A stretch of DNA of 64,000 nt from Haloprofundus halobius (lineage in GTDB: Archaea > Halobacteriota > Halobacteria > Halobacteriales > Haloferacaceae). The notes beneath the pieces are model-generated. The model did no database searches, had not been told where the DNA came from, and saw only the letters and a list, made by a program, of their open reading frames with translations. The stretch lies in NCBI RefSeq assembly GCF_020097835.1, contig NZ_CP083666.1, positions 1,302,001 to 1,366,000 of the forward strand. Direction: 5' to 3'. The position numbers and the translations under genes are program-made. Positions 18,571-20,309 of this stretch are shown in pieces (the stretch's first letter is position 1; every line of letters starts with the position of its first letter).

Positions 18571-18852
18571 TCAGTCGCGGTACGGGTAGCGGTCGATGTG
18601 TCCGCAGTCGCAGCGAATCACGACGTGGCCCGGTTGCAGGCGGACGCGGGCGTTGACGCCCGGAACGAGGTAGACATCGCAGGCGTCACAGGAGAAGCGT
18701 TTGAACTCGCGGGGGAGGCCGCAGCGGTGCCGCTCGTCGAGACGGCGGGCGAGGCGGACGTACTCGCGGGAGCGGTCGAACTTGCGCTCCTTAGTCGCCT
18801 CGCGGGCGAGTTCGTGGAGTCGGGCGATGCGCTCCTCGGCGATTGTCGGCAT
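18571..18852 (-). CDS. rnp4: ribonuclease P protein component 4 (Rpp21/Rpr2)
   Basis: The 93-residue protein is a subunit of archaeal RNase P, which trims tRNA 5' leaders; Rnp4 pairs with Rnp1 on the specificity domain. Two N-terminal helices (IAEERIARLHELAREATKER) are followed by a zinc ribbon with four cysteines: HRCGLP, FSCDACD and RCDCG. The frame is open upstream to 19158 but the family begins at the ATG at 18852. It is followed by the CRM-domain protein and MscS in the same direction. Confidence 0.94.
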   Translation of the reverse strand: MPTIAEERIARLHELAREATKERKFDRSREYVRLARRLDERHRCGLPREFKRFSCDACDVYLVPGVNARVRLQPGHVVIRCDCGHIDRYPYRD

Positions 18853-18984
18853 CCGTGCTGTACTGGGTCGGGGTTTTCTGATAGGTGTTCCGAAGCGTTT
18901 GTGGAGTGGTGGAGTTGCGGGAGAATGGTCTACTTCGCTACTGTCAAGTTCTGGTTCGGAGATGAGCAGCGGGAACAGCCGTAG

Positions 18985-19152
18985 ACACCTCGAAATCCCA
19001 CCCACGGTTGGCGGACGAACCACCGTCGGGTGGGATTGAAAGGGGCGAGCCGCTGGACGAAGGCGGACGAAGCAAGCACGTGAGGGAGCGTCAGCGACCG
19101 AACGCGCGCAGCGAGTTCCCCCGAGTCCAGCGGCTCGGGGCTTTCGAGGTGT
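18985..19152. repeat. folded inverted-repeat element (candidate ncRNA or dispersed palindromic element)
   Basis: In 168 bases there are three nested perfect or near-perfect stems. The outer pair ACACCTCGAAA (18985-18995) and TTTCGAGGTGT (19142-19152) is 11/11. Inner stem 1 is AATCCCACCC (18994-19003) with GGGTGGGATT (19028-19037), 10/10. Inner stem 2, between 19038-19058 and 19125-19145, pairs 18 of 21 positions around the core GAGCCGCTGGAC/GTCCAGCGGCTC. The decamer GGCGGACGAA occurs twice inside. It fills the 398-base gap between rnp4 and a glycosyltransferase and contains no credible ORF. The outer arm and stem 2 share bases, so alternative folds are possible. Confidence 0.7.
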
Positions 19153-19216
19153 TCTCAAGTGCGAAGCAGGACGACGCTCTTCCCCTTCCCTTTCCCTGAA
19201 CGATGAAAAGCCGCCA

Positions 19217-19226
19217 CACTAAAAGT
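19217..19226 (+). promoter_or_regulatory. TATA-like box of the first glycosyltransferase gene
   Basis: CACTAAAAGT is centred about 30 bases before the GTG at 19251, which supports that start. Confidence 0.45.
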
Positions 19227-19250
19227 CGCCTCCTGTGAACAAACAGAGCA

Positions 19251-20309
19251 GTGCGCGTCCTCAACTACCTCGAACTCGCCTCGCAACTCCATCGAAGCGG
19301 TATCGGGACCTCGACGGACCACCAGCGGGCAGCTCTCGAAGAGACCGACGTGGAGGTGGTCACTTCGCCGTGGCGCGGCGGGTCGCCGACTCGCATCCCG
19401 TTGAGCGCGCTCCGCGGCCGCAACCCCGTCGTCGAGTTCGACGTCGCCCACTGCAACCTCATCGGGCCGGGGAGCCTCGCCGTCGCCCGCCACGCCAAGC
19501 ACTACGGCAAGCCGCTCGTCCTCCACAGCCACGTCACGAGCGAGGACTTCGCCGAGAGTTTCCGGGGGTCGACCCTCGCCGCGAAACCCCTTCGACGATA
19601 TCTCCGGTGGTTCTACTCGCAGGCGGACCTCGTGCTCTGTCCCAGCGAATATACGAAAGGTCTCCTCGAATCGTACCCCGTCGACGCGCCCATCCGACCG
19701 ATATCGAACGGCGTCGACGTCGAATCGCTCGACGGGTTCGAGACGTTCCGCGAGGAGTACCGCGAGCGGTTCGGCCTCGACGGACTCGTCGTCTTCACCG
19801 TCGGCAACGTCTTCGAGCGCAAGGGGTTGACGACGTTCTGCGAGCTCGCCGAGGAGACGGAGTACGAGTTCGCGTGGTTCGGCCCGTACGACGAGGGACC
19901 GCAGGCGTCGAAGGCGGTGCGGTACTGGACCGAAAATCCCCCTGAAAACGTCACCTTCACCGGCTGGGTCGACGACAAGCGCGGCGCGTTCGGCGCGGGC
20001 GACATCTACCTCTTCCCGACGAAAAACGAGAATCAGGGCATCGCCGTCCTCGAAGCGATGGCCTGCGGGAAAGCGGTCGTCCTCCGCGACATACCGGTGT
20101 TCGAGGAGTTCTACACCCACGGCCACGACTGTCTGAAGTGTTCGACACGCGCGGAGTTCCGCCGCGCGCTCGACCTGTTGGCGCGCGACCCCGACCTCCG
20201 GGCGCGACTCGGCGAGAACGCGAGAGAGACGGCCGCCGAACACAGTCTGAAGCGCGTCGGCGAGGAACTCGTCGACGCCTACGAGGACGTGTTGGCCCGG
20301 CGAGTGTAG
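19251..20309 (+). CDS. glycosyltransferase family 4 protein
   Basis: The 352-residue GT-B enzyme starts at GTG. The N-terminal acceptor domain runs to about 160 (HSHVTSEDF, LVLCPSEYTKGLLE). The C-terminal GT1 domain has the retaining-enzyme EX7E motif in ENQGIAVLEAMACGKAVVL. The overall pattern resembles archaeal lipid glucosyltransferases and glycosyltransferases of polar-lipid or S-layer glycan synthesis. The acceptor is not evident. It is separated from another GT4 gene (21894) by a small regulator cluster that may be inserted between them. Confidence 0.9.
   Translation: MRVLNYLELASQLHRSGIGTSTDHQRAALEETDVEVVTSPWRGGSPTRIPLSALRGRNPVVEFDVAHCNLIGPGSLAVARHAKHYGKPLVLHSHVTSEDFAESFRGSTLAAKPLRRYLRWFYSQADLVLCPSEYTKGLLESYPVDAPIRPISNGVDVESLDGFETFREEYRERFGLDGLVVFTVGNVFERKGLTTFCELAEETEYEFAWFGPYDEGPQASKAVRYWTENPPENVTFTGWVDDKRGAFGAGDIYLFPTKNENQGIAVLEAMACGKAVVLRDIPVFEEFYTHGHDCLKCSTRAEFRRALDLLARDPDLRARLGENARETAAEHSLKRVGEELVDAYEDVLARRV

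Follow-up and report, generated by a model that had tools for sequence, protein, structure and literature searches.

A hairpin element between rnp4 and a glycosyltransferase gene of Haloprofundus halobius is probably a decayed copy of a mobile haloarchaeal repeat

We analysed a stretch of 64,000 nucleotides from the genome of Haloprofundus halobius (the window), in which rnp4 and a group-1 glycosyltransferase gene are divergent and a folded element lies between their starts (18985-19152; Table 1). Only the usual mechanical open reading frames of GC-rich DNA cross this element and the genes merely flank it, so that no gene accounts for it, as the original prediction from the bare sequence had held. 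That prediction had also described an 11-bp outer stem, a 10-bp inner stem, a long stem and a repeated decamer, and by inspection of the sequence we find every one of the stems where it had been placed and the decamer twice. The long stem consists of a 13-bp base with a second, inner helix above it. Positions 18975-19162 have a minimum free energy of -100.1 kcal/mol, whereas dinucleotide shuffles give -73.1 +/- 4.9 (z = -5.5; 0 of 200 shuffles fold as well), and the minus strand folds to the same degree (z = -5.7). Rfam gave no match at the gathering score for the window or for 16 related loci, and none at E up to 1 for positions 18900-19240. Part of the central hairpin (GACGAACCACCGTCGGGTGGGATTGAA, positions 19015-19041) may resemble Haloferax type I-B CRISPR repeats, probably by chance.

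Table 1. Features of the element and its flanking genes, in window positions
Feature	Positions	Strand	Basis
rnp4 (Rpr2 domain), start facing the element, outside it	18571-18855	-	Pfam PF04032, E 7.5e-15
Left outer arm ACACCTCGAAA of the host palindrome	18985-18995	+	sequence; complete doubles L011, L012, L013, L026 and L036; collapsed left sides L022 and L023
Central hairpin of the host element, AATCCCACCC ... GGGTGGGATT	18994-19037	+	fold; counterpart between the two units of complete relatives
10-bp inner stem, AATCCCACCC / GGGTGGGATT	18994-19003 / 19028-19037		
Decamer GGCGGACGAA	19010 and about 19063		
Complete 108-base hairpin unit, GAAAGGGGC-arm-...-arm'-GGGGCTTTC	19038-19145	+	covariance model R1, 100.7 bits; covariation
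13-bp base of the long stem, CGAGCCGCTGGAC / GTCCAGCGGCTCG	19046-19058 / 19125-19137		
Right outer arm TTTCGAGGTGT, pairing with 18985-18995 (11-bp outer stem)	19142-19152	+	sequence, fold
Outer-end remnant CGAGGTGTTCTCAA	19145-19158	+	comparison with the right ends of G063 copies
Group-1 glycosyltransferase gene, start facing the element, outside it	19251-20309	+	Pfam PF00534, E 5.4e-21

The 108-base unit belongs to a family of non-coding hairpins of about 90-130 bases (mostly 87-115 bp) with the layout GAAAG-GGGC-arm-(inner helix)-CGACGCAAGCAC...GCGCAGCGAG-(inner helix)-arm'-GGGG-CTTTC. In the window the interior likewise holds an inner helix and the conserved CGAAGCAAGCAC ... GCGCAGCGAG. 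The arms, of 10-14 bp, are entirely different from copy to copy and are complementary nonetheless. In an alignment of 33 sequences 98.1% of the cells are paired, 22 of 30 pairs have changed on both sides, and covariation is 0.534, versus 0.133 for shuffled and at most 0.07 for slid controls. The original prediction had suggested a covariance model and a search for compensatory changes; a larger alignment of 94 sequences, which was fitted to a covariance model of the unit (R1) built after the 33-unit alignment, gives 97.9% of cells paired, 25 of 30 pairs changed on both sides and a covariation of 0.616, versus 0.148 shuffled and at most 0.08 slid. Certain mismatches, GGG opposite GGG and C.C in helix 3, are kept across units. 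Once register duplicates are removed, the distinct arms hold 43 G.T and 13 A.C on the GAAAGGGGC..GGGGCTTTC strand (p = 7e-5); the ratio is 27:5 in single-unit copies (p = 1e-4) and 16:8, not significant, in two-unit copies (p = 0.15), all of these p-values being indicative only because the cells come from related sequences. Strand-symmetric mutation does not predict such an excess of G.T over A.C. Together with helices that are kept despite sequence change, this suggests that a single-stranded fold of the GAAAGGGGC..GGGGCTTTC strand, RNA or DNA, is maintained and is probably under selection. Folds of single-stranded DNA and of RNA predict these compensatory changes and this strand preference equally well, and much of the turnover of the arms could be explained by recombination between copies.

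The original prediction had further proposed searching haloarchaeal genomes, and this one, for relatives. A DNA search found them in 109 of 170 genomes of the family, and R1 matched 317 of the 392 genomes that we sampled from the order, in 78 of 95 genera. Instead of a single copy without covariation, the window element is therefore one of many strongly covarying copies. Six copies lie in its own genome, against which the window unit scores E = 1.7e-18 (a rough value, as the calibration of R1 was short), and five genomes have at least 91, 89, 95, 33 and 39 copies, lower bounds from the scoring of 150 candidates in each genome. An exact-pattern scan of GTDB genomes returned 104 stretches, from Halobacteria throughout among the matches listed, and plasmid matches of the family are haloarchaeal. 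The exact pattern has 0 matches among viral contigs, and we reject carriage by viruses. A literature search for the motif strings returned nothing relevant, which, given its incomplete coverage, is weak evidence that the family had not been reported.

Comparison of loci explains the shape of the window copy. In complete composites, seen at many loci, two outward-pointing units flank a central hairpin CCCCTTTCAGTCCCACCC...GGGTGGGACTGAAAGGGGC, and one side may be collapsed to GAAAGCCCCTTTC (L022, L023). The left outer arm of complete relatives continues CACCTCGAAAGCCCC and then enters a second hairpin unit in inverted orientation, which the window copy lacks. This copy retains the central hairpin with the unit to its right, and its left side is collapsed; hence the three-way junction that had been seen. 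A complete composite (L137) folds more strongly still (z = -12). Copies of the Halorubrum type and of the Haloferax/Halorarius type have a single unit and longer conserved left flanks. In a Halorubrum-like genome (G104) copies lie within elements of about 450 bp (L107, L109, L110, L106) that hold further variable hairpins joined by the conserved linkers GCGAGGGACGC and GAGGCTGGGGAGGCGTGAGG. A third architecture, in Halobaculum, Halorarius, Halogeometricum and Haloferax (L208, L212, L237, L248, L252, L253), combines a single unit with conserved sequence on both flanks, extending up to about 200 bp on the left (CCCGGAATGGTCGGTCGCGAGCGACGCGGAGGGCGGAA...), and its copies lie at different places in the genomes. 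Haloarcula-like loci (L292, L293, L140) have up to five tandem copies of the composite's right end, each about 43 bp long and beginning GGGGCTTTCTGGC. Two or more ends of the GGGGCTTT type occur within 300 bp at 30 of 272 units.

Units occupy the dyad of a short palindrome, GAAAGCCCCTTTC, with a direct repeat GCCCC on either side (GGGGC on the other strand). Bare half-sites (GAAAGCCCCTTTCARTCCCRCCC) occur in 40 of the 392 genomes, and a reversed control gave 0. The clearest pair of states is L420 (filled) and L421 (empty), from two species with nearly identical flanks, which differ by one unit at the palindrome dyad, with GCCCC left on both sides of it. This difference is not polarised, as the empty state would also result from exact deletion between the GCCCC repeats. 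The flanking GCCCC could represent a 5-bp duplication or belong to the unit itself; apparent target duplications of 7, 9 and 13 bp where units are inserted in other families were re-read as the constant GCCCC followed by arms starting with T or TT. At one orthologous site of a Haloarcula-like genus the element is found in five species and not in others. The five filled sites differ in their arms, in the deletion of a unit or in the inversion of a unit's interior, and the arms turn over faster than the flanks. In L293 (genome G471), compared with the orthologous L137, the left unit has its interior flipped between its two arms, with the orientation of the flanking GCCCC unchanged. At L295 (G473) the place that the composite takes in relatives is occupied by another short element, whose ends are AGAGCCTGTCCGAAAA. 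In the window's own genus, the orthologous place in genome G001 has only a unit-free, inverted half-hairpin.

Evidence of transposition comes from Halonotius roseus (G063) and a sister genus. Their composites (225-441 bp between the inner motifs of the ends) have inverted repeats like GGTNNTGTTCAGATWAG at the ends, and the flanking 8-mers match at 7 of 8 positions or better in 15 of 21 cases, 10 of them exactly, where swapped flanks give an expectation of 0.55. The same genomes hold IS6-family elements of about 700 bp that share the end motif GGTNNTGTTCAGATWAG and have exact 8-bp duplications (L368, L369, L375, L381). The IS6-type ends and 8-bp duplications, which we find in these two genera only, argue strongly that their composite has moved as a transposon. 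Elements of the IS1595 (ISH4) type were considered as carriers of the Halonotius copies and rejected, as their ends are CGCTCTTGTGAAG and the high-copy G063 has none. A Haloarcula-like genome (G407) has no IS6 match and its composites have different ends, which suggests that the hairpin cargo is common to carriers with different ends. The transposon end GAACAGTACC of the Halonotius copies is no longer recognisable in the window copy on comparison with the right ends in G063, and no duplication is seen there.

The genes around the units do not point to a shared regulatory role. Using a simple codon-score gene caller of our own, not a standard tool, we find 0 groups of units inside a predicted gene, and the possible arrangements of the neighbours are about equally common. 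Among 148 flanking genes assigned by Pfam, housekeeping functions are among the commonest families, and no TnpB motif occurs in 1.06 Mb around 215 unit loci. Even neighbour orientations, housekeeping neighbours and the lack of TnpB do not fit a terminator, a leader or a regulator of particular genes, and a role tied to rnp4, to the CRM gene or to terminators was rejected on the even arrangements. The place of the element beside rnp4 looks like chance, as had been suggested. An origin from TnpB and its omega RNA was rejected as well, there being no TnpB motif near the units and nothing of that kind in the listed families of neighbouring genes. The window element is best read as a regulator of neither rnp4 nor the glycosyltransferase gene.

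Based on these data, we propose that this element represents a haloarchaeal mobile repeat, composite and non-autonomous, in a decayed state, a reading to which we give a probability of about 0.77. A small palindromic host element, made of the outer arms and the central hairpin, would carry hairpin units at the dyads of its GAAAGCCCCTTTC palindromes. The composite of Halonotius and its sister genus would have moved by a transposase presumably supplied in trans, and elsewhere it may have spread in the same manner. The single-stranded fold of the unit, as DNA or RNA, would be recognised by a mobilising or processing factor. From the window copy the left unit and the transposon ends have gone; it is a relic and probably immobile. 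The original prediction had named a dispersed structured RNA or palindromic element: the dispersed palindrome, in many haloarchaeal genomes and with strong covariation, holds good, and the evidence favours a mobile element. It had also considered the ends of a degraded insertion sequence, which is close to the mark for a decayed composite, but the conserved cargo is the hairpin and not insertion-sequence ends. More tentatively, and with less chance of being right than of being wrong, the unit itself could be a class-wide mobile cassette, recognised by its folded shape and not by its end sequence, that enters and leaves palindromes through a single-stranded intermediate (DNA or RNA) and hitch-hikes on transposons whose ends differ between genera.

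The strongest competitor, which we regard as rather unlikely, is a family of structured non-coding RNAs: the plus strand would be transcribed and fold into a small RNA or an RNA-protein scaffold, and the multi-copy state would be secondary. The covariation of the helices, the excess of G.T over A.C, greatest in single-unit copies, and the long conserved flanks of the Halorubrum-type and Haloferax/Halorarius-type copies all agree with it, as does a passage in PMC10544981, citing work on Halobacterium, where palindrome-associated elements of haloarchaea are reported to be transcribed. Such an RNA is hard to square with an inconsistent gene context, with units whose presence varies at orthologous sites, with arms that change faster than the flanks and with the lack of an Rfam match; by inspection, the central region of two-unit copies is also GC-rich and has no obvious TATA box. 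The numerous, exclusively intergenic copies, in inverted pairs as in BIMEs, could instead be functional sites in DNA (protein-binding, replication or transcription-insulating palindromes like REP/BIME) that are kept for the host and do not spread selfishly. We consider this improbable, since there is no bias toward convergent gene ends or operon ends, presence differs between close relatives, and two genera have transposon ends and duplications. It is more improbable still that the structure is unselected, with template switching or recombination between arms making and "correcting" the hairpins: units do undergo interior inversion and are deleted precisely between GCCCC repeats (L293, L291), and identical arms are found at several loci of one genome, but the conserved mismatches are retained, not corrected, and a strand-symmetric process would not yield the G.T asymmetry.

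Among known systems, the closest counterparts of the units, going by published descriptions of size, repeats, copy number and insertion into palindromes, are the SMR-A repeats of Haloquadratum walsbyi (HqIRS42, HqIRS43, HqIRS55), although we do not file the units as SMR-A. SMR-A are non-coding, about 110 bp long and have prominent inverted terminal repeats, and a genome holds tens of them, inserted in the palindromes of other non-coding elements; their mobilisation is unexplained, they reportedly make no target duplication, and their hosts are reported to be IS605-type elements and PATEs (Dyall-Smith et al. 2011, PMC3119063). The units are likewise non-coding, of about 110 bp, with inverted terminal repeats and many copies per genome, and lie inside palindromes of which empty GAAAGCCCCTTTC and filled forms are both found. 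The GCCCC on both sides may set them apart from SMR-A, their family spans the class, and their hosts are non-coding palindromic elements with no TnpB motif near the units. The stretches of Haloquadratum plasmids that we searched have no match to the family. A second comparison is with MITEs that have IS6 ends, which the composites of Halonotius and its sister genus resemble in the GGTNNTGTTCAGATWAG ends of co-resident IS6-family elements, in the 8-bp duplications and in having no transposase. The interiors of MITEs are normally not conserved; the composite interior, in contrast, is a conserved, covarying structure common to copies with other ends in other genera. Like PATEs, the composites are short, non-coding, palindromic and haloarchaeal and undergo deletion between short repeats. 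PATEs derive from IS605-type elements and are without terminal inverted repeats or target duplications (PMC3119063), both of which the Halonotius composites have. Finally, the units share with bacterial REP/BIME sequences a high copy number, an intergenic place, palindromic form and frequent inverted pairing. REPs, as described in PMC3733652 and PMC2817692, are 20-40 bp long with tag sequences and a RAYT transposase, whereas the units are about 100 bp.

Mobile repeats of about 110 bp, their mobilisation unexplained, were already known in 2011 from one species, Haloquadratum walsbyi. We find a similar hairpin cassette over nearly the whole class, with covariation, a strand preference and natural empty and filled pairs, and a named transposase family for its carrier in two genera. 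Conserved, covarying hairpins in the intergenic DNA of haloarchaea should accordingly not be read as regulatory RNAs of the adjacent genes. If units are indeed recognised by shape, such recombination would in principle parallel, in archaea, that of integron attC sites. How such repeats move, and whether they fold as RNA or as single-stranded DNA, are now directly testable questions.
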